Shown here: piece by piece, positions 1 through 61,082 of the stretch | How positions within the stretch are numbered: position 1 is the stretch's first letter | How the letters are laid out: every line of letters begins with the position of its first letter | Source: Isoetes taiwanensis | Taxonomy: Eukaryota > Streptophyta > Lycopodiopsida > Isoetales > Isoetaceae | Length of the DNA stretch: 64,000 nucleotides | Assembly: GCA_021234155.1 (NCBI GenBank) | Contig: JAJEKV010000022.1 | Coordinates: 6,836,132 to 6,900,131 of the forward strand | Direction: 5' to 3' | The notes under the pieces: model-generated | What the model was told of the DNA's origin: nothing | The model's database searches: none | The model's input: only the letters and a program-made list of their open reading frames with translations | Position numbers and translations under genes: made by a program

Positions 1-40
1 ATTGGGGCTACGCCAATTCACTGAGGTGTCGGATGATCTG

Positions 41-62
41 AAATTGGGCGGGCGCCCAATTT
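41..62. repeat. 22 bp near-palindrome, spacer GG
   Basis: Arms AAATTGGGCG and CGCCCAATTT are perfect inverted repeats around a two-base GG spacer. This is the reference form of a motif dispersed over the first 17.6 kb. Confidence 0.9.
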
Positions 63-1195
63 TGCGTCGACCTAGTGCAAACAATTAAGATGATGTGTGT
101 CATATGCTCCCGGTGCCTTCTTTGTCATGCGAGGATTGGAAAATTTGTAATTTGCAAGCGATTAAGAAGTCAACTATGCGTGACACGACTACTTTGTATA
201 TCTTGATGGCCAGTGCGTGGAATAGCATGCCAGAAGTTGCCCGGTTATTCTCGAAGGCGGTTGAAGGGCGAGAAGGAGAAAAATTGAGGTGAAGGATAGG
301 CTTAGACTTTTCACCAATAATTCCATCGCCATTAAAGTCCATGCATCCTCTAGATCTGCAAAGGCTCTTGAAGGAGATCAAGGATGGCACCCACATTCTG
401 AAGGAAGCAAGGATTATCTTGGGAGGCGCACTATGAAGTGTCGAGGCCGGTGGCTGAAGAAGATTGGAACAATGGGCGGGCCCTTATCGGATACATGAAG
501 GAGGTGAAAACTTCCTTTTCAAGACATGGCTGCCTTGAGGCAAGCTCACCCCATATTCACGGAGAATCCAGTGCTTATGTTCTTAAGTAGCATCGGTGGA
601 TGGGATGGGCCTTAAAGAGATGGAGAAGGAAGCTTTCGGGTCCCTCTGACAAAAGTAACGTGAATATCTTCTAGGGCCGATTGAGGAGGGTGGCAAACCT
701 TTCCAAGTGTTTCCACGTTAGTCAAGGGAGGGTTTGTCGTGGGCGTGGTAAACATGACCCGCTTCATTGGATGCGACTTAGGATATACGAAGAAATGGCC
801 AAAAGGAAGATTATGAAAAATTCCTTGACCAGCTAAGCACGATGACGGACCAGCAACTTCTTTGGGTAGCTATATTTATTACCCCAGACCCGCCTCAATG
901 AGTGCCTATCCGCCATGAAGACAATAGCCCGGTGCTTGCCCGTGTTTGGGTTAGTTCCCTACCCGAGACCCCCGGCGAAGCTGCGACTACCTCTAGAGTT
1001 CGAGAGTTGCAATGTCTTGTCTGCTAATGTATGTTGCAGGAGATCTTGGTGACTCATATCAGTCTGAAATAAATATTTAACCCGTAATTCCGACCATCAA
1101 AACAATATGCTAAGTTTCCCAAAGCATTTCTGAGAAAAAGCAGGGACATCGAAAAGAATTTGCTGATCACGAGTAATGCGGCCGGTATGCATTTT

Positions 1196-1216
1196 AAATT
1201 GGGCGCCGCCCAATTT
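1196..1216. repeat. Near-palindrome, one-base spacer
   Basis: Same 10-base arms with a single C between them. The corresponding site in copy B (12,158-12,179) has CC, so one base was lost here or missed in sequencing. Confidence 0.85.
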
Positions 1217-2306
1217 GTATTGACTATCAATGTTTCTAACATTTTTTTTTCCGTGCGACTTATTGGGCATATCGACCTTGAATGCGACAAAGGGTGTGGT
1301 GGGGAAAATCTGAAAAGTGCGGTCCCGATTTGGAAAGTAGGGCGTGCACCTATCTAGTCACAGTTGATCTTGGAAGGTTACCTTTATTCTCGACTTCTTT
1401 TAAATTGGTGCTTTTTAGCCCGGCGGCGGTGTCTGGGAGGGCTATAAAACATTGTCTTTTGAGGCAGACGAGAAGCTGGAAATTAAGCATGCGAGATATT
1501 GAGCAACTCGATGTCATGTTAGGCGAAAAAATCAAGAGCTCCGGGCACTACGAGAATAAAAGAGGAAAGAAAGGCCTCTACTTCAAAAATGCTCCCTCGA
1601 CTCGACTTCACCTTACAAAGGACACCTTGTGGTTTCTAGTCTACAACCATAAGCAGTGCAATCATTTCGAGGCAGGGACAAGGCGCGATTCAAGTCTGAC
1701 TCAAAGAAGGCGTGACCCTAGGCTCTCGGTTGGAACTATTTAGGCGAAGAAAAACAACATCAACGCCTTTGGCGGGGGCCAGATGGTGAATACTCGGGAC
1801 ATGATTGAGGCGACCTCAAAGTTCGGGAAGAGGTTGCTAGGGAGCGACTACATCGTTGTCATGGAAACAGGGGAAGGGGACAATCGGGATGGAAGGATGT
1901 GGTCCCCAACACGATGAAGCGGTCAAGATGTAGGAAGAGGTGGCGAACACGAGAAGACAATCAAAGGTGCACATGATGAGAATGAGGCTGGGGCCGAAGA
2001 TTTTATGCAAAAGAATGGAATTGATCAAAAGGCGGCACAACAACCTCATTGACATAGAACCCAGTGGGGATCATTCGGAAGATGTGCCTCCAGACAGAAT
2101 GAAAAGCGACTTATGAGTTGAAAATCGTGAAATATGTTAATAACAATTGTTCATACTTCTTTTCAGAAATGATAACGTTGCACTCATTTCTTGTCTTAAA
2201 TTTCTCTAGTTACTTTGCTAACCAAATTGGGCGCCCATGAATTTGGCTAACCCTACAAACTATAGCCTTTTATTAAATTTATTTGACCGCTATCCTCACA
2301 TGATGG

Positions 2307-2328
2307 AAATTGGGCGGGCGCCCAATTT
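2307..2328. repeat. Near-palindrome, spacer GG
   Basis: Perfect 10-base arms with a GG spacer, and one further symmetric base pair outside (G...C). The counterpart near 13,288-13,308 in copy B is degraded. A partly degraded site lies just upstream at 2,224-2,244. Confidence 0.85.
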
Positions 2329-2857
2329 CTTGTGATAAGCGCCATCAAACATGAAGTGAAGTGGGGTGCTTGAAGCAGTGGAGATCAAAGAAGCGAGACC
2401 TCGGGGAATTACTCGGTGCGTTACATTATATAATATTGACTATGCTTATTACATCCTTACAACATTATTATATCCTTGTCCGGTACATTAACATATCCGA
2501 GGTGTACAAAGTCACTCGTCGTCGCGCCAAAGGCGTACCATTCGGCTCAAAATATCTGCGATGGGGAAATATCTGGTGGACCTCAACACAGTGGGCTTCA
2601 CTGCAATTACTCATGGGTCCATACGCTTTGGATTTTGGAGCCATGGATCAAGACTAACACAGGTCATATATACTTTGGCAAATATCGTTGTAACTCAAGT
2701 AGCACTTGAAGGATCGGATGTTCTCCGGACGTCCGGCAAAGGAAACCATGAGATGAATCACGGTGGGTTGCTTTTATAGGTGTGAAATTATTGATGTCAA
2801 TTATTGGGCGTACATACTAGCGCAGATGTAGTATAAAGGTACACCTGTCTGACCACA

Positions 2858-2887
2858 CGCGAAATTGGGCGGCCGCCCAATTTCGCG
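2858..2887. repeat. 30 bp perfect palindrome, spacer GC
   Basis: The core arms surround GC, so the whole core is self-complementary. Symmetry continues outward through CGCG on both sides, giving a 30-base perfect palindrome. The counterpart at 13,862-13,883 has one mismatch in the core. Confidence 0.9.
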
Positions 2888-2914
2888 CATCATCGATATG
2901 AGCATTCAAAGGGC

Positions 2915-2936
2915 AAAGTGGGCGGGCGCCCAATTT
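2915..2936. repeat. Near-palindrome variant (AAAGTGGGCG left arm)
   Basis: The left arm is AAAGTGGGCG instead of AAATTGGGCG; the spacer is GG and the right arm canonical. The same variant is kept at the equivalent place in copy B (13,914-13,935), so it predates the duplication. Confidence 0.85.
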
Positions 2937-3979
2937 CACAGGACATGTTGGACAAGTTGCACATATAGAAGACAAGTTGTACTAATACTTTATCTCATAG
3001 ATGATTACAGTCGATTACAACAAGATGACAAGCGTTCATTTAGGGGACTCTTAAGGTCATTTTCACGAGCACCCAGTGATCTTCTCTATCATGTACATTT
3101 GATGCTCTCTATTCCATATCGGATGGATGATAACGTCGAAGGGATCGGGATAATGGCGAGGATTTAAATATTTGTGGTCATCCAGGTCTTCCATGGGTAT
3201 CTCTAGCTTGGCAACCTTTGCTTGAAGTTTAAGTGATTCATCTTGCGGGTTGATGGAATCCGTTCAGGACGAATGAGACCACATGGCTGGGCGAAGGCCA
3301 AATTTGATGGTCAAAATTGGTTTGAGATATATTTATACCACAATCATTATTGAAGGTATTATGCGCAAAAGATTATTGGATGTACATTATATACAACCAA
3401 TAATCTTTCTGATGGTCATCAATAATTCCTTGGCTATAAATATATTTTGCATTGACGACATACCACAACACATTCATTTGCCATGTCTCGCCATCTTCAC
3501 AGGCCCCATGTTGACACCCTTACTTGCCTTATGACCTATGGCGATCTTTATGCTGCGAGTTGAAAGGGATCTCTCGATCCACGGCTGTATCAAGTATAAC
3601 TCTTGGTCGAAAGAAAGACTCCCCGGCCGGTATCATGTTACTATCCATATTGTGTGGGTTCCGGATGAGGCTTTTGAGATTAATAGAATCACCAATAATT
3701 ACAATCTATGACTCATGTATTTCTTAACTTTATATGATATGATGATGTAAGCGTGTTGTGCATGATTACATTGTTATGTTTGATTGTTATCTTGATTCGA
3801 TCTCGTTTTTCGTTTTCCTTTTGCTGCAAGAAGGAAGTGGGTGGGCGCCCAATTTTCTGAAAGTGGAAGCCTTCATGAAACTACCTTCAGGCCATCCCTG
3901 AAGGGGCAAAAGTCGCTGACCCGCCCGGTTTGGAGGAGACTATTCCAGAAAAGAAAATGGGCGGGCAATTTCCTCTGGA

Positions 3980-4007
3980 AGGAAAGTGGGCGGGCGCCCA
4001 ATTTCCT
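3980..4007. repeat. Near-palindrome with extended arms
   Basis: Left arm AAAGTGGGCG, GG spacer, right arm CGCCCAATTT, with flanking AGG and CCT extending the symmetry. Two partial copies lie just upstream, at 3,834-3,855 and 3,955-3,971. Confidence 0.8.
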
Positions 4008-6759
4008 GCAGGGAGGCCTCCATGAAATAAGATATTACTATTCGAGGAAATTGCGCGTCATTGGGATGTTCTCAATGTGAACAAAAACATTCTATTCACA
4101 TAGGAATGGAGTACATGGATGGATTCGTAGATAATAATATCAACTAAACAACATGCGTCGAAAGCATAGGTTGAGCAGGAATGACAATAGATAATAATAG
4201 ATAATATTAAACATGGGCGTTTTAGGTCAATATCGGTTCCATATAATTAGATCCCCGAGTTGGAACTCATTATGTCTTGTCGGCGTCTGATCCGGCCAGT
4301 CATCAATTACGCCGCCGGATAGAAGTCTTTGAGGATGAGTTTGATTACCAAAGCCACCGCTGCCTCTTTTCCTTCTTGTAAAGCTTCTTAAACAACGGCC
4401 CAAGGAAAGTGTTGTGCAGCCAAACATCCTCATTTTTCGGCAACCTCTTGAGCTTACGCCCTGTAAATATGGCGTTTCAAAGAAATCAAGCGACCTTCGG
4501 CTCTACCCACTAAGGTCATCAAGCTCATCGCCATCCTTCATCAACTCTCCACGGCCAGAATGAGCTTCACGAGTTGGCTTCTCATTTCTTACATGCCATT
4601 TTGGTTTATCTAGATTACGCACCTCAACTTTGAAGTTGATTCGCATGAGCTAATATTGGCTCAATGATATAGCTTACATTTTCGCTCATTGTGAATCCAT
4701 ATTGCTTTGGTTGGACCATTACATAACACGAATATGAATCTACACTATCATTTTGCGAATGCGGTGCGTGGCGAGACAAATCTCTGAGGCGCTTGGGCAA
4801 GAGACACAAACTTCGGTTGGCACTTTTTGGGCTTTATAGATACAAGGCCTGCCATCCACCTACTGCACACATTTGAAAATTTGCATCATTCTACTAAATA
4901 AAACCCTTATTTTCTAAAAATCGGGTACATTTGGGAGTCATATGGACTCGGCCAAAGTCCACAATTAATGATTATACTTTACTCTATTTGTTCTTGATGT
5001 GATAGCCGCGAGATGGACACAAGACCCTCACCTTCTTCAACTTTTTGTCGGTGGTTTCTGTTGAGATGCATTATACTAGTGACAGGTTGCCTCAGAGCAT
5101 GTCCCTCACGCTTTATACACTAGGCTGCTGGAATGATCTCGAATGCATTAAAGTGATGAGGCAAGCGGTAATGATAGATGAAAACAAAGATGGTGGAGTT
5201 TAGTACGAAGTAAGATCACATGCTAATCTTATGATAGCAATTATGGATGATAAAGAATATGAAATACTCAAGAAACGAAGGTGAGAAGATTGCTTGGCGG
5301 TGCTATGACTAGATGAACCCCTAGTGAAGAATGTTTTTATGTCGAGACCAATTGCGAAGACAAAGAAGGGACTGCGGATGTGGATATGGACCTCATAGAG
5401 GGGCGAAGAAGGAAGAGGAGGAAAAAGCGGGTCGTGACATCCTTTGTTCACCAATCAGAAGTATAGACTCTTGTTGCGCATAAAGGGGAAGAATTTGAAT
5501 AATCACAGGTTTTTCTTTGGCCTTCGAGTTTTACGATTGAAGCCTTCGCCCTTTGGAGTCAACATTTGGGAGTTTCATGTTGGAGGTTATGTCGGGCGGG
5601 AAGCTACGAAGCTAGCTAGGAAATGTCAAAGTGTGGTCTCACGATGGTCAAAAGCCAGGACTTCCTTGATATTTTTAGAAAGTGTTAGAGGTGGCACCTA
5701 GGGGTCCGATGGGTAGTGCAAAAAAATAGCTTCCACCTCTAAGTCCGAATTACCTCCGAATCGTGCGGGCGGGAACAAATAAAGAAAGCCAGATGGAGCA
5801 CATAAAAGATGAATCTCGACAGCTTGTGAGTTAATATAAATGAGGCATGCCTATAATTCCAATCACATTGGAAAATCCATTGAAGGTAATGTAGAGAACA
5901 GCAGCAGAAGAAGACAAAATCAAGATGATCTGATGGATTGAGCTTCGAGAGTGAGTTAGCATAAGAGTAATGAAATACCATAGTTCCAAACACTAGGTAA
6001 ATGTAGGTGACACTTAGCGGACAGAAGACAACCAGGAGTAAGCTCATCATTGCGGATGTTAGGCAGGAACGAAGGATGTTCTTCAAACAGAAAATCGCGC
6101 CCGGTAGCGATTTCAATTCTCTTTCCTTGTCGACAGTATGTGCTGCCAGATCTAAACTGGTTTCCTCCAAAATTCCGACCATGCGATTTGAATGGAGTGC
6201 TAAGCGTTACCCTAAAGCATGATTAGGCCTATCATGGTATGCGAGAAACCATTTGAGACACGTCACGAAATGGGTATGCTCATGACCGTGTCTGAAGGAG
6301 ATGTTAGACCAAGCTTTCACTTTATTCGTTGTGCAATTTGGTAAATGGAGTAAGCGAATAGAAATATCTGAGGAAGTTTGAGAGTAGTTCTACCGGTCAT
6401 GAAGATTATGGGCATCTGTTTGGGATGAGCAAATGTAAGTCATTCAACGAGAAGGATCCTACAGGTAAAAAAAAATTTGTGAAATGGCAGGCGACGATGG
6501 ATGACTTGGGCGTTCAGGAAGAAGACGTGGTAGCCTTGAACACTTCCTCCACACTACTCGCTCGGTAGTCCTTCGATATCTCACATAGAGTGGTATGTGT
6601 CATTGCCCCACAACCCCTTTGCTACTAGATGTTCATTAAGGAAGAGATACACCAGCCTGCAGGATTTCAGTAGTGTTAAAATCGGTAAGGGAAGGCGAAA
6701 GCAATGCAAATGACCTGGGGGACTCCCATTCAATGGTTACAAGGACAATAAAATTGGTA

Positions 6760-7330
6760 GGGTGCCCTGCGTGTAAGGGGTTTGGATTCCCCTTGTATAA
6801 GGTTAGTATTGGATCTGCGATGAGTCTCTCACAATGGGTAGAAAAAGAAAGTTCTCACTGAAGAGGCCATATCAGCGCTGGGTGGTGGTAGCCCAATTGT
6901 TCGTGGTGGTGGAGGGCTGTAAAGTAGGCACACTTTCACTTTCCCTGATATTTAGAAGCATCACCAAGAAAACACATTAGAGATCTGGTGGCCCACCGGA
7001 CGGTTCACCTATCGGTCATGTGCGAGAAAAGGGACAATATGGGCGGCCAGCCAATTTGTCCCATTCTTACAGAATGGTGACGCCGATTTGAACGAATCGG
7101 CTTATAAAAAGGGTATTATTGATCACGGTCGGTCTCAATGGGTACAAAAAGAAGGTTGTGGATTGCGGCGAGGGACATATCGGCGCTTCTGGAATTGAAA
7201 TCGCCCTGTTGTTAGGTGGTGGTTAAAGACTTGTGAGTAAGCCCGAACTTCGGCGCCCGCCAATTTAGTTGTCACCAAGATAAAACACCAGTCTGGTTTG
7301 CCCATCCGAGGCGATTTCACCTACAGTCAC
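6760..7330 (+). repeat. Degenerate direct repeat pair
   Basis: Two related blocks, about 6,785-7,025 and 7,105-7,330. Shared landmarks in order are 'caatgggta..aaaagaa', 'catatcggcgct', 'ggtggtgg', 'caccaaga' and a closing 'ttcacctaY.gtca'. Both contain a GCC-CAATTT-like motif. No coding function is seen. Confidence 0.55.
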
Positions 7331-7979
7331 CTACACATACACACTAAAGAGAACTAAGAGGCGGAGACACTGGCGGAATTTATCATTGAGCTCCCAAAAC
7401 AAAACAATCGAGCATTGGAAAGGGCGACTACAAACAAGGTTAATGGAGAAAATAAGCGAGCACACAAATCCTGCATGACAATTTCCAGCGAAAGAGGCGG
7501 ACTACGCGCCGAAAATTTGGGTTTATATAAATGTAAGCGGTGCTTAGGTTGAAGAGGAGGGGTAAATCAAAGGTCAAGCCGCCGAAGCGTGAATGGAAGG
7601 TGTGAATGAGCAGGCGTGCTTGAAGAGGTGCGAATGAGCAGTAGTGAATGGAAAGGCGTGATTGATAAAATCGGGTAACATCACATTTGCGGCAATTACA
7701 CATCGAGCTATGGCGAATTTAAGCGTGGAGACAGCACAAACCTTTGGAATCTCGTGGCCATGAATATGAATCGCTGAAGATGTTTTGCGTCTTGTAGAAA
7801 AGATAGTAGCCAAACAAAGCCTTTGCCGAAAAAACAACGAGTTTGAAGGCGCATTTACATTTAAACATGAATTCCCCAAAATTTGAATGTAATTTCCCCA
7901 ATTTTTTAAGTTAAATGTCCCACCTAATTTGAAAATAATGTGTCAGTCCGGAACTTTCAAAAATGAGTTCCGCCTAAAG

Positions 7980-8190
7980 CACGTGCGACACGTGCATGAC
8001 TTTCAATTAATTTTTTAGGCTTTAAATAGCTTGATTTGAAATTCAAAAATCCAGCACTCATTATTAAGGTCCTAATTAATTCCTCACGCTTCGAAGCCAT
8101 CAACGGTCCATTTTATTTCAAAGGGCCAAGCGCTTACATACCGCGACACTTGTCTTAGCCCCAAGAGGTCCATAACCCTTTAAAAGCCCC
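7980..8190 (+). promoter_or_regulatory. Possible promoter with paired G-boxes
   Basis: Two CACGTG hexamers lie at 7,980-7,985 and 7,989-7,994. A TTTAAAAG TATA-like sequence follows at about 8,178. Downstream is an open stretch (8,232-8,498). G-boxes are bound by plant bZIP and bHLH factors. The arrangement resembles a plant promoter, but transcription is inference. Confidence 0.3.
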
Positions 8191-8448
8191 TCATTCTCCT
8201 CATTTGCAGATTTAGAAAATTACGTGCTTCTTTGGCGCTTTGTGCTCCGCTAAACTTTGTCGCCTTCATATTTCTTAACCACGAAAGTGGATTCTCGACC
8301 AGCACTATACTCCCGAACCGGTATGCGAAACCCCGGATGTTCGAGCTCTTGGCCTTGTGTCTCGGCCGGCTTATAAGCCATCTGTTGGCGCCTTCCTCTG
8401 CATTGACCTATCGCACGGGTACCCTGTACACCAAGGAATTCCTGGAGT

Positions 8449-8478
8449 TGATGGCATCTCGCCCCACCACCGGTGGCA
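8449..8478 (+). other. Possible first coding exon ending at a splice donor
   Basis: ATG at 8,449 opens MASRPTTGGK, followed immediately by a good plant splice donor (AAG then GTAAGG). This lies about 270 bp downstream of the TATA-like motif at 8,178. I could not find a convincing second exon, so this may be chance. Confidence 0.2.
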
Positions 8479-8892
8479 AGGTAAGGTGGACTACTTTCTA
8501 AATATAAACTTGAGCGCTTGTTGATTAAGTATCCCCTATAACATCTGGACATATGAACATCTTCTAGATGCCTCTTTCCCCCACGTCATGCATACGTATG
8601 CGGGCCGGAATAGGGCACCCAATTTGCTTCCCCTTAGAGTGTTTCATTTTGCAAAACATTGGACATTGGACCCAATGTGGCGGTAGCCGATTTGCCTATC
8701 CAGACACCAGGCGGTAGCCGGTTACCTATCTGGGAACCCGCGACTACCCGGGATGGTAGGCTTGGTGGGGCTAAATTGAAGCCCAATTTAATCTGACCAA
8801 ATCTACCATCAAAATGTCGTGCTCTCACGAATAAAAAGCGAAGCGATCTTCCACAGTGTGAACAAAATAAGTAGAATTACAATATCTTGTGG

Positions 8893-9080
8893 GATCACGG
8901 CAAAATTGGTAGGCCCAATTTGGTATCGTGGGGATCACGGCAAAATTGGTGGCCAATTTGGCCCAATGACCCTAATCGTCTCCTCGGACTCAAGGCTCAC
9001 CATGAGTTGAGCGAGAAATTGATGCGCCCAATTTGGTGTCTTGCGATGGGGATCAGGGGCAAATTAGGCGGGCCCAATTT
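8893..9080 (+). repeat. Local cluster of partial palindromes
   Basis: The phrase 'gggatcacggcaaaattggt' occurs at about 8,891 and 8,931, each followed by a shortened GGCCCAATTTGG. Further partial motifs lie at about 9,027 and 9,057. It looks like short tandem duplication of a unit carrying the AAATTGGG/CCCAATTT motif. Confidence 0.6.
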
Positions 9081-9302
9081 GCCTCCATCACAACAGTCTC
9101 TTCAGCCCCAAGTCTCCCAAGTACTAACACTACTTTGGATTCTAGGGAATTAATATGCGCCTTGAACAAAGCGGTGCTCGGGTTCCGTCTGGGACCCAAA
9201 TTGCGAGAGGCTATTGCAATAGAGAATGCAAAAGAAGAAGAAGAAAGATCATTTCTTTGGCATCGAGGTTGTGCCCCATGAAGTTTTGCCCGGTTCTCAC
9301 GA

Positions 9303-9611
9303 ATGGGGTGCGGGTGCATAGAGATAGGAATATTCATCCACGGGTCCCGGACAAACCACCTCAAGGATCTTACGCTTTTCTTTGGCAAGATAGGGGCAGG
9401 AAAAATGAATTCGGCCGGGTATCGTCATCGACATGGAGGTGTCGCTGCGAACAATGATGACTTCCTCATCGGCGTTGAAGACACCGTAGATCGGACTTTT
9501 GTCCGTTATAAAGTTCCACTATCTAAGCACGAGCCATGTATGATGAAGCGCAAGTATAAAGGAAAGCCCACATTCTTATTTCGAGAAAGGATGGTATTTG
9601 GACTCATATGA
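9303..9611 (+). pseudogene. Coding-like fragment, unknown protein
   Basis: A 102-codon open frame whose second half (IGVEDTVDRTFVRYKVPL, then a Lys/Arg-rich stretch) has protein-like composition. The start is arbitrary: residues before about 40 look like out-of-frame sequence. A separate frame just upstream (about 9,120-9,280) also looks coding (ALNKAVLGFRLGPKLREA then a Glu-rich run), so a longer gene may be broken by frameshifts. I do not recognise the family. Confidence 0.3.
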
Positions 9612-10285
9612 AAGTTTAAAATTTCGGGTATCAAATCAGAACCCGATATTTTGGATGGCTACTATTTGTCGGGCAGTGGATATTAGAGCACAAGCGAACA
9701 GGTCTAAAAGCAGCATTCCGCGAGTATCGGGGCAAAAACCAACCTAAAGTGTACGATACTAAGTGGCTTAAGTCTAGATACAAGAAAGGTGAGAGACAGC
9801 ACAAAGCTGAGGGGCGGCGCAAATGGAGCCCGAATCTGGCAGTCAAAAAGAAAGCGAGGACACGCTAAGGCTATTCCTTGTAAAATTTGCCACTAAACTT
9901 ATATTGGTGGAATAAGAAGAAGAGAACATCAAAGGTCGCCCGTCACGAGTCGAGAAAGGACCAAAGGCGTGAAGAGGAACCCCCTAAAGCGCATGGGAAA
10001 AGATTTGGGTGGTCCGATGAAGAGGCGCAAAGCGGGGCGTGTTATCGCAGAGCCCAAAAAAGCGGAGAGGGAGTCCTTGTCTTCTTCTTCATCCCGAACA
10101 ACCGGGAGAGTGGCCGGCGGATCGTGAAGTTCACTCCATGCGGTGGCGGCGTCACTCGGGGGGAAGCGGAGACATGAGTTGTCACAAGCGCCATAGCAAG
10201 CATCAAGCAGGGAGAGAATCTACCCTGCGGGGGTGGGCTTCGAGATTGAAGTCGATGTGTTCAAGATGCATAAAGCCCCGCAAAT

Positions 10286-10822
10286 ATGACTTGTAGGGTC
10301 ATAAGTCCGGCACTTGGACACTCTCTACGAATCGTTTATCAGCCATCGGATGCACCCTCCTGTGCTGATGTCGTGCCGTTCGATCCACGGGCCAGGCGAG
10401 CAATAAAGTGGAAGAAGTGGGAGGATGCGCAAAATGCGAATCTTTGGATTGTTAATGGCAACCACTCGACCACGGTTGCTCAAGCGTTTGTCACACAAGC
10501 TTTGGCATGGCCTCTGAAAGAAGCACTTGGCAAGCCCGATATTCTTTTTCTATGCCAAAAAAATCGCAGGAGTCTGGCGGGGAAATCTCCCGCGACAATG
10601 AAATGCGTTCGTGTAAGCCGGGAGAATAATGACATAACAAAGACTATACAGGAAGTATTTTTGAAGAAATTAGCAGCCCAACCAATGGGCATTCTACGGG
10701 AAGCCACGGAAGGGCAAACGCCGGGCACTCCGTCGGTGGGCGTATTCTGTAAGTGCACTACCACCATTACTGGTTCTGCTATCCACAAGTTCGGGGGCGC
10801 CCGCCCAATTTCAACCTATTAA
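10286..10822 (+). CDS. 178-codon open frame with possible ParB/sulfiredoxin-like motif
   Basis: The longest open frame in the first 18 kb. Residues about 30-60 are basic and Trp-rich (RRAIKWKKWEDAQ), then LWIVNGNHSTTVAQ at about 55-69. The Gly-Asn-His-Ser motif after a hydrophobic strand resembles the [DN]-G-[QN]-H-[RS] motif of ParB/sulfiredoxin-fold proteins. RENNDITKTIQEVFLKKL (about 112-130) is predicted helical. The frame lies just before long repeat copy B and ends in a partial palindrome (10,793-10,811). Its true start and end are unknown and it may be a fragment of a mobile-element gene. The fold suggestion is inference from a short motif. Confidence 0.4.
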   Translation: MTCRVISPALGHSLRIVYQPSDAPSCADVVPFDPRARRAIKWKKWEDAQNANLWIVNGNHSTTVAQAFVTQALAWPLKEALGKPDILFLCQKNRRSLAGKSPATMKCVRVSRENNDITKTIQEVFLKKLAAQPMGILREATEGQTPGTPSVGVFCKCTTTITGSAIHKFGGARPISTY

Positions 10823-12157
10823 CCTCTTTTCAAATTGAGGATAGCCCAATTTCATCCGGTGCGACATTAACAACTTCATTGCTGTAAATCTTTGCTCGCC
10901 CAATTTGAAAGCGTTGGGAAATTGTATTTCAATACAAAACATATGTCTTTCCGCCTTTTCTCCCTTAACAATGGGTTGTGTCGGATGATGCGAGGGGTAG
11001 GAAAATAACGGGCGCCCAATTTCGTCTTTTCTGCAAGCAAATTAAGATGATGTGTATCGCCTTATCTGGTGCCTTCTTTGTCATGCGAGGATTGGAAAGG
11101 CATGGCGCTGCAAGCGATTAAGAAGTCAACTATGCGTGACTCGACTACTTTGTATATCTTGATGACGAGTCGTGGAATATATGCACAAAGTTGCCCGGTT
11201 ATTCTCACGAAGCCGGTTGAAGGGCGCGAAGGAGAAAAAATTGAGGTGAAGGATAGGCTTAGACTTTTCACCAATAATTCACATAAGCCCATTAAAGTCC
11301 ATGCATCCTCTAGATGCGCAAAAGGCTCTTTGAAGGAGATCAAGGATGGCACCACATTCTGAAGGAAGCAAGGATTATCTTGGGAGGCGCACTATGAAAG
11401 TCGAGCCCGGTGAGCTGAAGAAGATTGGAACAATGGGGCGGGCCCTTGTGGGATACATGAAGGAGGTGAAGAAACTTCCTTTTCAAGACATGGCTGCCTT
11501 GAGGCAAGCTCACCCCATATTCACGGAGAATCGATGCTTATGTTACAAGTAGCATCGGTGGATGAAGCGAAGGGCATAAAGAGATGGAGAAGGAAAGCTT
11601 TAGGAGTCCCTCTGACAAAGTAGGCGAATATCTTCTAGGGCGGTTGAGGAGGGTGGCAAACCTTTCAAGTGTTTCCACGTTAGTCCAGGAGGTTTGTGCG
11701 TGGGCGTGGTAAACACTTGGCCCGCTTCATTGGATGCGACTTCGGATATACGAAGAAATGGCCAAAGGAAGATTATGAAAAATTCCTTGACCAGCTAAGC
11801 ACGATAGCGGACCAAGGTGACTTTCTTTGGTAGCTATATTTATTACCCGGACCGCCTCAATGAGTGCCTATCCGCCATGAAGACAATAGGCGGTGGTGGC
11901 CCGTGTTTGGGTTAGTTCCTACGAGGACCCCCGGCGAAGCTGCGACTACCTCTAGAGTTCGAGAGTTGCAATGTCTTGTCACTGCTAATGTATGTTGCGA
12001 GAGGCAGCATGACTCGCCATCGGTCTGAGAAATAAATATTTGCTTCGCCAATTCAGACCATCAAAGCAATATGCTAAGTTTCCCAAGCATTTCTGAGAAA
12101 AAGCAGGACATCGAAAAGAATTTGCACGATCACGCGGTGTGCGGCGGTATGCATTTT

Positions 12158-12179
12158 AAATTGGGCGCCCGCCCAATTT
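12158..12179. repeat. 22 bp near-palindrome, spacer CC
   Basis: Arms AAATTGGGCG and CGCCCAATTT around CC. Equivalent to 1,196-1,216 in copy A. Confidence 0.9.
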
Positions 12180-13205
12180 TTGATGACTATCAATGTTTCT
12201 AACATTTGTTTTCCGTGCGCGGCTTATTGGTTTGTATCGACCTTGGTGCGACAAGGGTGCGGCGGTGGGGAGGAATCTTGGGTCGAGAATCGGTTGGAAA
12301 GTAGGGCGTGCACCTATCTAATACAGTTGATCTTTGGAAGGTTGCCTTTGTTCTCGACTTCTTTTCGGTGGTGCTTTTTAGGCGGCGGTGTCGAAAGAGC
12401 TATAAAACATTGTCTTTGAGAGGCGACGAGAAGCTGGAAATTAAGCTTATGCAGATATTCAGAGCAACTTCGATGTCATGTTAGGCGAGAAAAAAATCAA
12501 AGAGCTCGGGCACTACTGAGGAAGATAAAAGAGGGAAAGAAGAAGGCCTCTACTTCCAAAACCGCTCCTCGACCTCGACTTCACCCCCGAGACACCTTGT
12601 CCGTTCTCGTCTACAACTATAAACGAAGTGCAATCAGTTCGAGGACGGGGACAAGAGCGCGATTCAAGTCTGACTCAAAAAGGCGTGACCCTAGGCTCTC
12701 GGTTGGAACTATTTAGGCGAAGAAAAACAACATCAACGCCTTTTTGGCGAGGGGGGACTGGTGAATACTCGGGGACATGATTGAGGCGACCTCAAAGTTC
12801 GAGGAGGAGGTTGCTAGGGAGCGACTGCATCGTTGTCATGGAAACACGGGGAAGGGGACAATCAGGATGGAGAGGATGTGGTCCCCAACACGATGAGCAG
12901 TCAAGATGTAGAGGAAGAGGTGGCGAACACAGAAGACAATCAAGGTGCACATGATGAGAATGAGGAACTGGGGCCCGAAGATTTTATGCAAAGAATGGAA
13001 TTGATCAAAGAGGCAGCACAACAACCTCATTGACATGGAGAACCCGATGGGGATCATTCGGAAGATGTGCCTCAGACAGAATGGCGACTTATGAGTTGAA
13101 AATACGTGAAATATGTTAATAACAATTGTTCATACTTCTTTTTCAGAAATGATAACGTTGCACTCATTTCCTTGTCTTAAATTTCTCTAGTTTACTTTGC
13201 TAACC

Positions 13206-13227
13206 AAATTGGGCGCCCGCCGAATTT
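13206..13227. repeat. Near-palindrome, spacer CC, one mismatch
   Basis: AAATTGGGCG, CC, CGCCGAATTT, with CC/GG extending the symmetry outside. The copy A counterpart (2,224-2,244) is more degraded. Confidence 0.8.
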
Positions 13228-13913
13228 GGCTAACCCTTACAAACTATAGCCTTTTATTAAATTTATTTGACTCGCTATCCTCGCGATAAATTGGCGGGCG
13301 CCCAATTCTTGCGAAGTAAGCGCCATCAAACATGAAGTGAAGTGGGGCTGCGAAGCGGTGGAGATCAAAAGCGAGACCCTCGGGAATTACCAGTGCGTTA
13401 CATTATATAATATTGACTATGCTTATTACATCCTTACAACATTATTATATCCTTGTCGGGTACATTAACATATCCGAGTGTACAAAAGTCACTCGTAGCG
13501 TCGATCAGCGTCCTTGAGGCGATGCCATTCGACTCAAAGATCTGGCGGTCGGGAAGCCAATATCTGGTGGACCTCAACACGCAGGTGAGCTTCACGCAAT
13601 TACTCTTAACTTTGAGTCCATCGCTTGGAATTTGGAGCCATGGATCAAGACTAACACGGTCATATATTTGGGCAAATATCGTTGTAACTCAAGTAGCACT
13701 TGAAGGATCGGATGTTCTCAGGACGATCCGGCAAGGAAACCATGAGAGATGAATGCGGTGGAGCTGCTTTTATAGGCGTGTGAAATTATTGATGTCAATT
13801 ATTGGCGTACATACTTTAGCCCAGCGGTGTAGTATAAGGTACACCTATCTGACCTTGCTTGAAATTGGGCGGCAGCCCAATTTCGCGCATCCTCGATATG
13901 AGCATTCAAGGGC

Positions 13914-13935
13914 AAAGTGGGCGGGCGCCCAATTT
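13914..13935. repeat. Near-palindrome variant (AAAGTGGGCG left arm)
   Basis: Same variant arm, GG spacer and flanks as 2,915-2,936 in copy A. A related site with one core mismatch lies at 13,862-13,883. Confidence 0.85.
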
Positions 13936-14984
13936 CACCAGGACATGTTGGACAAGTTGCACATATAGAAGACAAGTTGTACTAATACTTTATCTCATAG
14001 ATGATTCTGATCCGATTACAACAAGATGACAAGCGTTCATTTAGGGGACTCTTACGAGTCATTTTCACGGGCACCCAGTGATCTTCTCTATCATGTACAT
14101 TTGATGCTCTCTATTCCATATCGGATGGATGATAACGTCGAAGGGATCGGGATAATGGCGAGGATTTAGGCGATTGTGGTCATCCAGTCTTCCATGGGTA
14201 TCTCTCGCTCGCGGCCTTTGCTTGAAGTTTTCGTGATTCATCTTGCGGTTGATGGAATCACGTTCGGGACAGGCCCGAGACCACATGGCTGAGCGAAGGC
14301 CAAATTTGATGGTCAAAATTGGTTTGAGATATATTTATACCCACAATCATTATTGAAGGTATTATGCATAAAGATTATTGGATGTACACCGTATATACAA
14401 CCAATAATCTTGCTCTGATAGTCATCAATAATTCCTTGGCTATAAATATAGCTGCATTCGGCCCCACTGACACATTCATTTGCCATGTCTCGCCATCTTC
14501 ACAGGCCCCATGTTGACACCCTTACTTGCCTTATGACCTATGGCGATCTTTATGCTGCGAGTTGAAAGGATCTCTCTCGATCCTGGTGTATGGTATAGCT
14601 CTTGGTGAAAGAAAGACTCCCCGTGAGTATCATGTTACTATCCATATTGTGTGGGTTGGGTTCCTTGAGGCTTTTGAGATTAATAGAATCACCAATAATT
14701 ACAATCTATGACTCATGTATTTCATAACTTTATATGATATGATGATGTAAGCATGTTGTGCATGATTACATTGTTATGTTTCGAGTTGTTATCTTGGTTA
14801 CGATCTCGTTTTCTCGTTTTCCTTTTGCACGCAAGAAGGAAAGTGGGCGGGCGTAATTTTTCACGAAAGTGGAAGCCTTCATGAAACTACCTTCAGGCCA
14901 TCGAAGGGGCAAAGTCGTGACCTTGGGTTTGGAGGAGACTATTCCCGAAAGAAAATGGGCGGGCGCCCAATTTCCTCTGGAAGG

Positions 14985-15006
14985 AAAGTGGGCGGGCGCC
15001 CAATTT
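14985..15006. repeat. Near-palindrome with extended arms
   Basis: AAAGTGGGCG, GG, CGCCCAATTT, as at 3,983-4,004. A second near-copy lies 32 bp upstream at 14,953-14,973; its copy A equivalent (3,955-3,971) is truncated. Confidence 0.85.
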
Positions 15007-16040
15007 CCTCAGGAGGCCTCCATGAAATAAGATATTGCTGTTCAGAAGTTGCACGTCATTGGGATGTTCTCAATGTAGACAAAAACATTCTATTCACATA
15101 GGAATGGAGTACATGGATGGATTACGTAGATAATAATATCAACTAAACAACATGCGTCGAAGGCATAGGTTGAACAGAATGACAATAGATAATAATAGAT
15201 AATATTAAACATGGACGTTTCAGTCAATATCCAGTTCCACCGCAATTAGATCCCCGGTTGGAACTCGATATGTCTTGTCGGCGATCTGGATCGGCCAGTC
15301 ATCAGATTACGCCATCGGATAGGGAGTCCGAGGATGAGTTTGATTACCAAAGCCACCGCATTTGCCTCTTTTCCTTCTTGTAAAGCTTCTTAAACAACGC
15401 CCAGGAAAGTGTTGTGCAGCCAAACATCCTCCATTTTCAGCAACCTCTTGAACTTACGCCTGTAAATATGGCGTTTCAAGGAAATCAAAGCGACCTTCCA
15501 GCTCTACCACACTAAGGTCATCCGGCTCATCGCCATCCTTCATCAACTCTCCACGACGAATGAGCTTCCTGAGTTGGCTTCTCATTTCTTCTGTGCCATT
15601 TTGGTTTATCTCGTTCTGCACCTCAACCTGAAGCTGATTCGCATGAGCTAATATTGGCTCGTGATATGTACATTTCGCTCATTGTGAATCCATGCTTTCA
15701 TTGCGCTGGTTGGGACCATTCGGTAGCGCGAATATGAATCTACACTATCTTGATTTGCGAATGCCAGAACAACGGCGTGGCGAGACCACGATCTCAGAAG
15801 GCGCTTGGGCGAGACACAAACTTCGGTTGGCACTTTTTTTGTGCTTTATAGATACAAGGCACCTGCCATCCCACCTACACGCACACATTTGAAAATTTGC
15901 ATCATTCTACTAAATAAAACCCTTATTTTCTAAAAACGGGTACATTTGGGAGTCATATGGACTCGACCAAAGTCACAATTAATGAAATTATACTTTACTC
16001 TATTTGTTCTTGATAGCCGTGTACACGAGATGGACACAAG

Positions 16041-16906
16041 ATGATTACATCACCTTCTTCAACACATCGCGGTGGTTTTTACGGTCGAGATGCATTATAC
16101 TATCGTGACAGTTTGCCCTCCGACATGTCCTACGCCTATGCACTAGGCTGCGCAAATGATCTCGAATGCATTAAAGTGATGAGGCAAGCAAGAATGATAG
16201 ATGAAAACAAAGATAGTGAGTTTAGTACGAGAAAGTAAGATCTCACATGTGCTAATCCTTATGATAGCAATTATGGATGATAAAGAATATGAAATACTCA
16301 AGGGGAAACCGGAAGGTGAGAAGATTGCTTGGCGTGCTATCGGCTAGATGAACCCTAGTGAAGAATGTTTTTATGTCGAATCCAATTGGAAGACAAAGGG
16401 AAAGGGACCTGCCAGATGTGGATGTGGACCTCATAGAGGACCTAAGAGGAAGAGGAGGAAGAAAACCTGGTCGACGCCGTCCTTTGTTCACCAATCAAGT
16501 ATGAGCTACCGACCGCGATAAAGGGGGAAGGCTGAATAAGTACCGGGTTTTCTTTGGCCCTTCGAGTTTTTCGATTGAAGCCTTACGCCCTTTGGAGTCA
16601 ACGTGTTGGGAGTTTCATGTTGGAGGTTATGTCGGGCGGGAAGCTCTGAAGCTAGCTAGGAAATGTCAAAGTGTGGTCTCTGATGGTCAAGCCAAGGACT
16701 TCCTTGATATTTTTTTCGAGAAAGTGTTAGAGGTGGCACCTAGGGGTCCGATAGGTAGTGCAAAAAATAAAGCTTCCACCTCTAAGTCCGAATTACCTCC
16801 GGATCCGGGCTGCAGGCGGGAACAAATGAGAAAGCAGATGGAGCACATAAAGATGAATCTCGACAACCCGGCCCGATTAACTATGCGGCCGAACGCGTGC
16901 CTATAA
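16041..16906 (+). pseudogene. Decayed reading frame in copy B, unknown protein
   Basis: Protein-like segments in successive frames. They include HRGGFYGRDALYYRDSLPSD followed by ALGCANDLECIKVMRQARM (about 16,065-16,205), an acidic/basic stretch (DVDLIEDLRGRGGRK, about 16,420-16,460), WEFHVGGYVGREALKLARKC (about 16,608-16,667), then a Ser/Lys-rich segment and a Met/Gln-rich helix near 16,830. Copy A keeps parts of the same frames (about 5,100-5,700), which supports past coding. Frameshifts separate the segments, and I do not recognise the family. Confidence 0.35.
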
Positions 16907-17640
16907 TTCCAATCACATTGGAAAATCCCATTTGAAGGTAATGTAGAGAACCTTGACGAAGAAGACAAAATCCAAGATGATACAGTGGATTCGGAAAGCT
17001 CGAAAGTTAGCATAAAGAGTAATGAAGTACCATAGTTCAAACACTAAGTGATGTGGGCGACACTTCGCGCGGACCGAAGACAACCGAGTAAGCTCATCAT
17101 TGCGGATGTTGAACAGAACCGAAAGGTATGTTCTTCAAACAGAAATGAAAATCGCGCCCCAGCGATTTCAATTTTCTTTTTCCTTGTCCGACAAGTGTGT
17201 GCTTTTCTTATTCTGCATCTAAACCGGTTTCCTCCAAAATTACGGTGTTCGATTTGAATGGAGTGCTACGCAAAACGTTACCTAAAGCACAATTCGACCT
17301 ATCATGGTATGCCTGAAACCATTTGAGAACCGCGTCTGAAATGGGTATATCCATGGCCAGTATCACGAAGGAGATGTTAGACCAAGCTTTCACTTTATTT
17401 CGTTGTGCAATTTGGTGCGTCGATGGCGAATAGAAATATCTGAGGAAGTTTTGAGAGTAGTTCTGAATTACATAGAGATTGGGCATCCGTTTGGGATCGA
17501 GCAAATGTAAGTCATTCAATAACCGAAGGATCCTACAAAAAAAAAAAATTTTTGTGAAATGCTTGGCGACATGATGGATGACTTGGGCGTTGGGGAGAAG
17601 GAAGACATCATTATAGTTGATGATGGCCTTGAAGTGTTGC

Positions 17641-29515: not shown

Positions 29516-30569
29516 TCATTACATGTTACCTGGCTATTAAATAAGTCGGCCATAACCAAAAGCTCTAAGCACATGATAAAAACCAAAGCGCATTAAATCC
29601 CTGCCTGTGTAATAAATCAACCTTCTCAGGGGCATAAGCTAACACTTATGAAGCTTTCTTTGGCCTGCAATGTTTTCTGAGAAGATTGATTATGCTAGCG
29701 GATTAAAAAGAGAAAATAATAAATCGTGTGGAGCTTTTCGGCCTCTTGAAGATACACCACAACGGTAAGCCACAAGGAAAAGAGGCGAAACTCTTTGATG
29801 CGAGCGGATGGTCATGCAAGGCATTAGCTTGTTGGTCGATCCGGAATATCATCATTTCTTGCTTTGGTATTTAGATTTGCCAATCCATCCCTTGTTCACA
29901 TCTTACGCGGATTAAATGCGCCATTAGCAGAGTACATGCATGTGGCCAGTGCGAACCTCATCAAAACTGCTGCCCTTACATGCATCTGGTCAATTCGAAA
30001 CTCACGAAAACTATTGCCCTATTTGCTTTATCTAGCCCTACTTATCTTCTTGAAATGTTCTCAAGTCGGAAAGTGTCCCTACTTATCTTCTTGAACTGCC
30101 CTTTTAAGGCGAGATGCTTTTCATTTTTCAAAGCTTCCGCAAGTTTATAGAATGCACTAATAGTTCGTAATAGACTGTGCATAGTAGGGTGTGCATTGAG
30201 GTTGAAGTCAAGCTGCAAAAGTTACCTTGTTTGTTATATAGATGTGTGAGACATCCCATAATTGTCTATGTGAAGGGTCATTTATAGTGACATCAAGGTT
30301 TAGATTTTAGTAAATCATAGTAAAATGCCTAGTGTTGCTGGACTAGAAAGCTATTATTGGACAGAATGGTCTTGTAGTCTAATGATTGTTAGTTATCAAT
30401 GTAGGATTTGTAGTCCAACCTAATAAGGTATCTTTTGGGAGATTTTAGTTTTGGCAGCATTTGGAATATTCTTTGAAACAAATGATTCAAGCATATCATT
30501 TCATATTTTTCTCAATCTAAATATAACTCTAAGGGGTGCTTGATGTCACCGGGCTCTCATCAGGATGTT
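29516..30569. other. No gene recognised
   Basis: Mixed AT-rich DNA. A 76-codon open frame at 29,864-30,094 has no recognisable motif. Confidence 0.4.
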
Positions 30570-31300
30570 TTGTTTAAGGTCCATATATTAGGAAGTCACC
30601 AGATAGTCAAGTCCAGTAGACACCTACATATCTTATCCATATCAGGTTGCGCCGAATGGACCATAGTGAACATGTATCAACAGAAAGTTCTAGTACATCG
30701 GGGTTAATCATTGAAGTCACCAGGCAACCAAGTCGAGTAGACACCTACATATCCTATCCATATCAGGTTGCGCTGAATGGACCATAGTGAACATGTATCA
30801 ACAGAAAGTTCTACTACATCGGGGTTAATCATTGAAGTCACCAGGCAACCAAGTCTAGTAGACACCTACATATCCTATCCATATCGGGTTGTGCTGAGTC
30901 AGGCAACCGGGCCTAGTAGACACCTACATATCCTATCCATATCGGGTTCGTCGTTCGGTGCAACCCGATTTGGATAGGATATATAGGTGTCTACTAGGCT
31001 TGGCTGCCTGATGACTTCCGAATATGGACCTTAAACAAAAAAAGGTCCATATTCTGGTGACTTCCTAATATGGACCTTAAACAAAAGGTCCATATTAGGA
31101 AGTCACCAGGCGGCCAAGCCTAGTAGACACCCACATATCCTATCCACTATGGACCATTCGACGCAACCCGATATCGATAGGATATATAGGTGTCTAATAG
31201 GCTTGATTGTCTGGTGACTTCCTCAGATAGACCTTAAACGAAAAAATAATTGGCGCAACCCGATATGGATAGGATATGTAGGGTTGCGTCGAATGGACAT
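30570..31300. repeat. Complex direct and inverted repeat array
   Basis: The phrases GTAGACACCTACATATCC + TATCCATATC and GTTGCG.(C/T)GAATGGAC recur at about 30,615, 30,738, 30,865 and 30,915 in direct orientation. They recur inverted at about 30,965-31,000 and 31,165-31,200, and direct again near 31,115. AAGTCACCAGGCAACCAAG and GGTCCATATTAGG mark unit edges. Adjacent inverted edges (31,020-31,110) form hairpins through AAACAAAA spacers. This looks like repeated fold-back insertion or rearrangement of one short transposon end. Confidence 0.75.
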
Positions 31301-31897: not shown

Positions 31898-31905
31898 TTA
31901 AATAG
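31898..31905 (+). promoter_or_regulatory. TATA-like box of the P450 gene
   Basis: TTTAAATA lies 30 bp upstream of the P450 start codon. The distance is short for a TATA box, so the mRNA leader would be very short, or the real box is the weaker TTTATACA at about 31,860. Confidence 0.3.
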
Positions 31906-31934
31906 AAAGGAAAGGGGCAGTAATACCCATAGAA

Positions 31935-33572
31935 ATGGATTTGAGCGTGTGCATTTTTCTGCTCTTGGCGCTCATTATTGTGTTGTTATTCAGGAAAAAA
32001 TGGGGAGCACAAACTCCTCCAGCTTATTCTTATGCCGCTGTTACACAAAAGAGACGCCTGCCTCCAGCTCCTCCATCACTGCCAATAATAGGCCATCTCC
32101 ATCTCCTCTCTAATCTGCCTCATCGTGATCTGGGCAATCTTTCGATCCGCTATGGCCCCCTGTTCTTCCTTCGCCTTGGCTCTGTCAATTGCGTTGTGGT
32201 TTCAAACGCCCAACTCGCTAAAGAGTTTCTTAAGACCCACGACTCCTTTTTCGCTTCTAGACCCCAGCTTGATGTATCTAGAATTCTTTTTTACAACTGT
32301 AAGGATATCGGCTTTGCCCCATATGGAGAGCACTGGAAGCACATGAGGAAAATTTGCATCCAGGAGCTGTTCACCCCCAGAAAGCTGCAGGGAACCAGGC
32401 GTATCAGAGTTGATGAAATCTCGTGCACCCTGAAATCTATTTTGGAAGATAGCCTTGCAAACAGAGCTGTGGATTTGAACTCCAAACTTTCCAGCCTCGC
32501 TACCAACGTGATCACCAGAATCGCACTTGGCCGGAAATTCTTCGGAGAAGACAGCGCCAAAGGTGCAGAGCAGTTCAGGCAAATGGTTCGAGAAACTTTT
32601 TTCTTGTCAGGCGTGTTTAACATAGGAGATTATTTGCCATGTTTATCAAGGTTTGATCTGCAAGGATACAAGCGAAGAATGGAAGCTGTGCATATACAAC
32701 TTGATGCGTTTCTGGATGAAATACTGGAGGAAGAAATTGAAAAGATTGCGATGTGCGGAAAGGATGGATCAGATTCAGATCATTTGGTAAGGGTATTACT
32801 GCAACTGCAAGTGGGAGGAGGGAAGCTGGAGCACGAGGCAATCAAGGCGGTTATTCAGGTTCTAGCGATAGTTCTTAGGACCAGATTCTGTGCATTTTCT
32901 GCAAGAATTTAGAATAGGTCTAAATTGTAATTTAACTAAGAAGTTTGTATGCCATTACAGGACGTGATATTGGCAGGGACTGACACATCGTCTGTGACCG
33001 TAGAGTGGGCAATAGCAGAGCTTCTTCGATCGCCTGGGATAATGCAAAGGGCACAGACAGAATTGGATGAAGTGGTCGGATTTGAACGGCTGGTGGAAGA
33101 AGAGGACATTCCGAACCTACCCTTTTTGCAGGCAATTGTGAAGGAAACATTTCGGCTTCACCCAGCGGGTCCTTTTCTGGTTCCTCGCGAATCAATTGAT
33201 GAGTGTAAGGTAGCAGGCTACGACATTCCAAAGGGAACCCGTTTGATCGTAAATGCTTGGCAGATCGGCAGGGATCCCCAGTTTTGGAAAAACCCAGATG
33301 TGTTTGATCCTCACAGATTTATTAACAGCAGCATAGATGTGAGGGGCAGGGATTTTGAGCTTATTCCATTTGGAGCTGGACGAAGAATTTGCCCTGGTTT
33401 GTCTCTTGGACTTACCATGGTCCATATCATTTTGGCCTCTTTGATCCATTCCTTCGACTGGGATTCTGTTGAGGAAGTAGACCTCTCAGAGAATTTTGGG
33501 CTCACAATGCCTATGGCAAAACCCTTGCTTGCCTTTGCCACCCCAAGGTATAAAAAGATGATTTCTCCTTAA
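31935..33572 (+). CDS. Cytochrome P450, CYP71 clan (two exons)
   Basis: Exon 1 is 31,935-32,858, then a 102 bp GT-AG phase-0 intron (32,859-32,960), and exon 2 is 32,961-33,572. The product is 511 residues, normal for a microsomal plant P450. An N-terminal membrane anchor (about 3-20) precedes the Pro-rich hinge PPAPPSLPIIGH (43-54). Further signatures are I-helix AGTDTS (313-318), K-helix ETFR (370-373), FDPHRF in place of the usual PERF (423-428), and heme loop FGAGRRICPG (445-454) with axial Cys452. It should be an ER-bound heme monooxygenase using electrons from P450 reductase. The intron before the AGTDTS exon matches the conserved intron of A-type P450s. The motifs point to the CYP71 clan; the family and substrate are not determinable here. 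The reading frame is intact. A MITE pair lies 160 bp upstream. Confidence 0.93.
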
Positions 33573-60357: not shown

Positions 60358-61009
60358 TATTTTTACGTCATGCCACATTGGCAGCGTCCATGAGAACAAA
60401 TTAAGAAATGTTTATTGATCATCTCACTTTGAGATGAAAAATAGATATTTTGCATACCATCAAATGAATTTGGTCTATGAAATGTTGTGATGTTTAACAA
60501 AACCATATGCATAAAACAATACAAGCAGGGATTTGAACCCTGGTATTCCCGCTAGTAATAGACACTCCCTCTGCACACACTATACAAATTAAACAACAAA
60601 TTTAATTGAAGAACTCCATGCCTTGTTAGTTAGAACCATGACGTTTTTATATTGAAACATCATGAAAACAATATATATTGTGGCGATAAACTTGACGATT
60701 TATATATAGCTCAAACTCAAGGTTCCTAAGAAATTTGATCCCTACTATTTCCATTTGGCCAATCCAGCTGGTTAAGAGAAGAAAAGATCCATCCTTTATC
60801 CATCCAAGTTCTAGCATGTAATACTTGCTAGAACTTGATAACTCTGATTTATGTAACAATGGTTTGTAATTAACCCTGATCCTTTGAGCATGCACTTGTT
60901 TTTGCACACAGTAAGAAGATCTTAAATGTCTTGCCATAAGTAAGGAGCTGTTTAAAAAGAGCTGAAACGCTGTAAGGAGCTGTTTAAATAGCCTCTATCG
61001 TAAGTATCG

Positions 61010-61082
61010 TATCGGAGGAGGGATTTGAACCCCCGCGCGCGAATTGTGATTCCGCTGTTCTAACCGACTAAACTATTCCGAC
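61010..61082 (-). tRNA. Mitochondrial tRNA, anticodon CAC as read
   Basis: 73-nt cloverleaf. Acceptor GTCGGAA pairs with CTCCGAT (one A-C mismatch and one G-T). D stem GTTT/GAAC, anticodon stem GCGGA/TTCGC with loop ATCACAA, T arm GGGGG-TTCAAAT-CCCTC. The encoded anticodon is CAC (Val). One C-to-U edit would give CAU (Met or Ile) or UAC (Val), so identity is open. A C-to-U edit would also repair the A-C mismatch. The CCA tail is not encoded. As part of a nuclear insertion it is probably not functional. Confidence 0.7.

Follow-up and report, generated by a model that had tools for sequence, protein, structure and literature searches.

What are the 22-bp near-palindromes that are scattered through the first 17.6 kb of a 64-kb stretch of the Isoetes taiwanensis genome (contig JAJEKV010000022.1, positions 6,836,132 to 6,900,131; all 64,000 nucleotides are here called the window), and what carries them? 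The original prediction placed them in an unknown long repeat and offered a protein-binding array, the terminus of a tiny mobile palindrome, or a hairpin used in replication. We find that the palindrome is a real, family-specific signal carried outside the coding parts of a family of DNA transposons with terminal inverted repeats (TIRs). Their genes encode a DUF7869 transposase and two further proteins (gene 2 and gene 3). With a probability of roughly 0.58, we predict that the palindromes, or dyads, are sites of a dimeric, element-encoded, clade-specific regulator, whose likeliest effect would be family-specific transcription or anti-silencing in trans.

The dyad of the window has the pattern AAATTGGGCG-NN-CGCCCAATTT (22 bp, mismatches scored in the arms only). 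The window contains 12 matches at ≤3 mismatches, four of them exact, against a mean of 0.00 in 100 dinucleotide shuffles; 11 sites match at ≤1 mismatch and 18 at ≤5 mismatches, all within positions 1–17,640. Genome-wide (1,658,258,908 bases in 1,110 contigs), there are 5,256 sites at ≤1 mismatch and none for the reversed-pattern control, far above chance. The exact sites, which like the others have no assigned strand, are at 41..62 and 2307..2328 (spacer GG), 2862..2883 (spacer GC, extending to CGCG...CGCG), and 12158..12179 (spacer CC), as first described; a fifth listed with them, 13206..13227, has one arm mismatch and is not perfect. Single mismatches are also found at 2915..2936 and 3983..4004 (both an AAAGTG variant), 13862..13883, 13914..13935, and in two dyads (14952 and 14985) within a 33-bp tandem repeat (14952..15006). 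The equivalent sites described for both copies of the long repeat were confirmed in five pairs at an offset of ~10.95–11.0 kb: 1195/12158, 2307/13287, 2862/13862, 2915/13914, and 3983/14985.

Related elements carry other dyads. Fifteen loci were sampled via DNA, TIR, or protein similarity, not via the palindrome, and scanned at ≤3 mismatches; loci A to J make up clade 1, which has the dyad of the window, K and P clade 2, and N, a single locus read, clade 3. The clade-2 dyad, AAATGGCGCC-NN-GGCGCCATTT, has 2,826 genome sites at ≤1 mismatch, and the clade-3 dyad, AAAGTGTATTCC followed directly by GGAATACACTTT (a 24-bp core), has 3,557, with zero sites for either control; the three kinds together account for 11,639 sites at this threshold. 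Each of the 10 clade-1 loci has 3–26 dyads of its own kind and none of the other two, K has 15 clade-2 dyads and no clade-1 dyads, P, the second clade-2 copy, agrees with K in its eight, and N has five clade-3 dyads. Two of the three dyads are found together in none of the 15 loci. The dyads are clade-specific in the sampled loci, and, as we read the letters, the half-sites of all three have an outer AAA(K)TG in common and diverge in their inner letters. The kind of dyad is not simply tied to the element ends: AAGCACAATTTCATTA is common to the TIRs of A, F, and K, with two bases changed in J, yet the dyads differ.

The sister clades also bear on a suggested link to plant site II (TCP) boxes. 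The clade-1 dyad has a TGGGC core, which we take to be that of site II, and the elements might have recruited host transcription factor sites of the TCP/site II or E2F-like kind. However, clades 2 and 3 have different cores at comparable positions, and the constrained 20–22 bp exceeds the length of such sites, which are shorter. We consider host factors quite improbable, and the site II link is not supported.

Placement was analyzed at ≤2 mismatches in loci F, H, I, J, K, and N, with spans set by TIRs where known, and elsewhere by the extent of the sequence read, and coding blocks set from protein alignments and open frames. None of the 75 dyads overlaps a conserved coding block, though such blocks make up 41–83% of the spans. 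The dyads occupy intergenic DNA and gaps interpreted as introns, frequently in arrays: between the divergent transposase gene and gene 2, in gene-2 gaps, and between genes 2 and 3. Tandem arrays are clear in H, P, and N, and less so in F and the window. Those of H, with periods of about 52, 68, and 72 bp, are found ahead of both the transposase gene and gene 2 and within a gap of gene 2; the array upstream of gene 2 stops ~110 bases before the start, and a further dyad pair follows the gene. In J, a dyad pair (5394 and 5498) lies ahead of gene 2, which begins near 5640. The region 2741–3051 of N (L031, reverse complement) contains perfect palindromes of up to 34 bp in a ~42-bp tandem array, upstream of a 987 amino acid transposase frame. 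When the window is mapped to copy F, the dyads at 41 and 12158 each fall between coding blocks of gene 2, in a gap taken to be an intron, and the dyad at 2307 falls between gene 2 and gene 3.

An array directly upstream of the transposase open reading frame, as in N, would also suit binding or autoregulatory sites of the DUF7869 transposase itself, like the TNPA subterminal repeats of En/Spm, and only the transposase was found in all three sampled dyad clades. Binding by the transposase nevertheless appears unlikely. The dyads are interior and in gene-2 gaps rather than concentrated near the ends, although half-site-like units do occur close to the right end of K, and the TIR start has been conserved across clades 1 and 2, whose dyads differ.

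A tiny palindrome that itself moves and spreads within the transposon would account for dispersed sites and for symmetric, site-specific flanks (below). We judge it highly improbable: comparison of copies gave sites at shared positions with varying centers and no clean absence. There was no clean 22-bp empty allele in 33 comparisons over six pairings (F/I, I/F, F/C, C/F, G/C, and F/A), none appeared in the aligned blocks of the six copies A, A2, B, C, D, and E, and the filled and empty sites expected of a miniature inverted-repeat transposable element did not appear. Eleven of the 12 F dyads have a recognizable counterpart in A; the twelfth, F 3263, has none in A or C, though the flanks there align poorly. 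Between F and A, B, C, G, and I (12, 12, 12, 10, and 3 sites), the outer half-sites have 0.88–0.92 identity versus 0.67–0.73 in the flanks, and the inner parts have 0.67–0.83.

The original prediction counted at least ten clear sites and about as many degraded ones. Five copies disagree at 12–18% at the C of CG, CAG, CTG, and CCG versus 2–5% in six other C contexts, and transversions are about as common as C>T. The I. taiwanensis assembly was published from Oxford Nanopore Technologies (ONT) v9.4.1 data with racon and pilon (PMC8566536). Nanopore miscalling of methylated cytosines would explain the copy disagreement at CG/CHG no less well than decay. Because the copies disagree most in these contexts, the state of individual degraded sites is unreliable, and some may be assembly noise.

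The flanks of the dyads are more symmetric than expected. In clade 1, 58 clusters were formed from 114 sites, and the left and right flanks were dealt anew in 5000 permutations. Symmetry extends beyond the core by a mean of 1.31 bp versus 0.54 bp permuted, and by ≥3 bp in nine of the 58 clusters versus 1.56 permuted, values reached in 0 of 5000 permutations; the clusters are partly dependent (B 12796 and D 2838 are one site). Symmetric flanks of 10 bp are found at K 10644 and at one L005 site. This site-specific extension of symmetry is what a structural element might show, with dyads acting as DNA cruciforms or RNA hairpins in replication or RNA processing and flanks selected for pairing. Against this, dimer binding is a better match than hairpins for spacers of 0–2 bp, the clusters lack full independence, and there is no compensatory change at a site where the right flank CGCGCATC is common to A, A2, C, and E, because their left flanks differ. 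Template-switch correction of imperfect palindromes could give symmetry without function, and the symmetric flanks may stem from structure, wider binding, or such repair. The proposed replication hairpin is weakened by the short spacers; a structural role, for which the symmetric flanks leave some room, appears unlikely.

A clade-specific regulator encoded by the element would bring most of these features together. The two 10-bp half-sites and 2-bp spacer would form a two-fold symmetric site for a dimeric protein encoded by the transposon. Dyads would be retained away from conserved coding blocks, building up into tandem arrays at such places in some sub-families, and regulator and site would change together, clade by clade. 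Such joint change is most likely because the sampled DUF7869 clades each have their own dyad. The action may resemble that of VANC proteins for VANDAL transposons, a VANC-like system being one in which a protein encoded by the element binds the motif and strips DNA methylation in trans. We infer protein binding, encoding by the element (gene 2 or the transposase), dimerization, and anti-silencing. The idea of a protein-binding array fits the non-coding placement, the arrays, the conservation of outer half-sites above flanks, and the clade-specific replacements. We found no paper linking Isoetes, transposons, and palindromes in the limited collection of literature searched.

Several observations weigh against such a regulator. 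Loci M and Q (two of the 15) have none of the three dyads, and Q has transposase and gene-2 matches with only a weak candidate dyad, GAAATCGC-N4-GCGATTTC. This candidate was drawn from Q itself and has seven sites there at ≤4 mismatches (shuffle mean 0.39, with 3 the largest count in 100 shuffles) and 0–4 sites in other loci. In N, which represents clade 3, nothing in 9.9 kb of sequence matches gene 2. The inner half-sites are no better conserved than the flanks in B (0.68/0.68) and C (0.67/0.67) and little better in G (0.74/0.69). Gene 2 changes faster than the transposase only modestly outside a 353 amino acid core. Dyads within arrays and between related copies are non-independent, and the site-specific symmetric flanks are not predicted by simple protein binding.

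The first candidate for the binder in clades 1 and 2 is gene 2 and the second is the transposase, which is the sole candidate seen in clade 3. Gene 2 would not be the binder in clade 3 unless it is located elsewhere, because no match to it occurs in the sequence of N. Loci F, H, and I have the transposase, gene 2, and gene 3 (in part); gene 3 was not matched in J. The transposase of J is an intact 1,075 amino acid frame with DUF7869 as its only Pfam match above the cut-off (E = 1.1e-38), and transposase frames range over 987–1136 amino acids. A search of the genome with the 353 amino acid piece of J gave 13,568 first-look candidates, of which 115 were scored; the matches listed form two groups by identity (100–63% and 58–54%). 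A PF25273 search gave 9,910 candidates (150 scored) and matched none of 14 control genomes. Gene 2 gave 1,868 candidates (150 scored), with 51–100% identity among those listed. Between K and clade 1, gene 2 has 23–37% identity (42% in one 64 amino acid piece) and the transposase 31–41% in long alignments (versus J, 40% overall and 58% in the 353 amino acid core). No family was assigned to gene 3. The term DUF7869 was not found in the limited literature collection.

In two of four sub-families, gene 2 opens with MARTKQTAR, the histone H3 tail sequence, and in the other two it opens with near-variants (e.g., MARTKSTARK). The start is MARTKQTARVPG in F (5033, L018) and H (5323, L022), MARTK*TARMPG, with one codon a stop, in I (5436, L024), and MARTKSTARKPG in J (5640, L026). 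The methionine of H and I is the first available, because an in-frame stop is present six codons upstream. A scan of 11 loci for MARTKQTAR at ≤2 substitutions matched five (F, H, I, J, and a broken MARTKQIAF in E); no such start was found in A, B, C, D, G, or K, nor in P or Q. In A–D and G, either decay or assembly noise may account for its absence. Distal gene 2, around LDFFSGGAFSRAA, has sub-threshold likeness to DNA methyltransferases (PHROG E = 0.027 for H and 0.24 for K, none for I). The same place matches RsrI, also sub-threshold (E = 0.86 and 0.14), and in one of the two RsrI searches unrelated chains score better (a sensor protein, 0.0069; ClpB, 0.023). These matches hint at a methyltransferase-like end. 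Gene 2 of H has a sub-cut-off Pfam match to bPH_9 (E = 0.0025). A ParB-like domain (IVNGNH) was also considered for its resemblance and dropped, as Pfam, PDB profile, and PHROGs searches gave nothing.

Tentatively, and against the odds, gene 2 may encode a protein with an H3 tail (MARTKQTAR or MARTKSTARK), maybe methyltransferase-like, that is tethered by the clade-specific arrays to all copies of its family. The displayed tail would attract or block chromatin enzymes and keep the elements open, a new class of anti-silencing. An H3-tail-like N-terminus on a transposon protein would give a direct handle on element versus host chromatin; no transposon protein with such a histone-mimic start was among the matches listed from the limited literature collection.

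The long repeat of the original prediction is present, and its identity is a TIR DNA transposon with 4-bp target-site duplications (TSDs), tandemly duplicated in the window. A direct repeat of 6.5 kb relates 49–6524 to 11009–17600 (86%). Seven other copies (L002, L003, L005–L009) end at window position 4979/4980 (15995/15996) with unrelated DNA beyond, and an eighth (L004) breaks off before that point. On the left, copies run past the window start, and extension placed the element start at window position -7283. The full element is 12.3–12.5 kb in A, B, and C, and ~12.3 kb for the window copy, with inverted ends AAGCACAATTTCATTAATTATGGAC and AAGCATAATTTCATTAATTGTGGAC (the right end is slightly damaged in A and B). 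An imperfect TIR of ~25 bp is present in A, B, C, F, and G, and has 494 forward and 524 reverse matches genome-wide at ≤2 mismatches, with zero for controls. TIRs and TSDs were examined for clades 1 and 2, and the TSD is exact in six of seven copies (A TACT, C TGTA, F TATT, G AAAT, J TATT, and K CATG) and off by one base in B (TCTT/TTTT). Copy F spans 17.1 kb; its positions 10260–16227, unmatched in C, may represent an insertion. Just upstream of the element copy in B, positions 3633–7512 (G000:C1025:9152120-9155999) form a long diverged tandem array with an internal inverted repeat.

In the window, a 10.8-kb unit of element end and flank (-4294..6526) is tandemly repeated as 6527..17600, which may be an assembly error. 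The 6.5-kb direct repeats are not long terminal repeats (LTRs), because they are part of this duplication and because copies B and C are single with TIR ends; an LTR retrotransposon or large retrotransposon derivative (LARD) was rejected. Copy 1 (1..4979, plus strand) is the 3' part of a full-length transposon that starts outside the window; its right TIR and TSD (4951..4983, plus) include TACT at 4980–4983, the same as TACT at the left end. The 3' flank (4980..6526, plus) is another dispersed repeat within the duplication; the part at 5100–6500, adjoining the element end, gave 830 first-look candidates, of which 40 were scored. Copy 2 (6527..15995, plus), a product of the duplication, is 5'-truncated, beginning at element position ~2990; its right TIR has the same TACT flank (15967..15999, plus), and the duplicated 3' flank (15996..17600, plus) comes after it. 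Gene remnants are the 5' part of the transposase gene (6528..6755, minus; DNA match to F 3099–3334), gene 3 with the right end (4179..4984, minus; DNA match to F 16370–17194), and two broken gene-2 exons whose resemblance was judged by eye: 1282..1743 (plus), like the F/H/J region around LDFFSGGAFSRAA, and 10274..10822 (plus), like the I/K/F region with IVNGNH. Elsewhere, the window has two frames of a cytochrome P450-like gene (31902–33572, plus; the first matches Pfam p450, E = 6.5e-32), clustered direct and inverted repeats that include a 121-bp tandem unit (30568–31246), tRNA-Val(cac) (61009–61082, minus), and tRNA-Gln(ttg) (63212–63283, plus).

Known systems offer partial parallels. In En/Spm (CACTA) elements, the element-encoded TNPA binds repeated short motifs clustered at the element ends, which begin CACTA or CACTG and have a 3-bp TSD. 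The Isoetes elements likewise have repeated short motifs, but their dyads are not mainly at the ends; membership was rejected, as the ends begin AAGC and the TSD is 4 bp. Membership in the VANDAL or Mutator-like (MULE) elements, which have TSDs of 8–11 bp, was rejected on the same TSD and on the J frame, which matches only DUF7869 in Pfam and no MULE transposase. Sola transposons have 4-bp, usually AT-rich TSDs and short TIRs, with an 888 amino acid transposase in one Sola2 element (PMC3627910), and Sola1 is listed for Physcomitrella (PMC9033089). The Isoetes element has AT-rich 4-bp TSDs and TIRs, with frames of 987–1136 amino acids versus 888 in that Sola2 element, and may be a Sola relative by these TSD and TIR features.

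Sequence-specific anti-silencing by transposons is known from Arabidopsis VANDALs, where VANC targets are family-specific motifs in introns and intergenic and terminal non-coding DNA, in tandem repeats, that differ between related families (PMC5735166; PMC10398659). The Isoetes system has a similar anatomy: a single-family motif in non-coding DNA, tandem multiplication, different motifs in related families, and a multi-gene DNA transposon. It differs in the DUF7869 transposase, the 4-bp TSD, and a dyad of 22–24 bp versus the nine-base VANC motif, and the likeness is one of motif anatomy. If our prediction is true, the three dyad clades would offer naturally matched regulators and sites in which to study how DNA-binding specificity shifts, and VANC-like anatomy under another transposase would point to more than one origin of private control sites.

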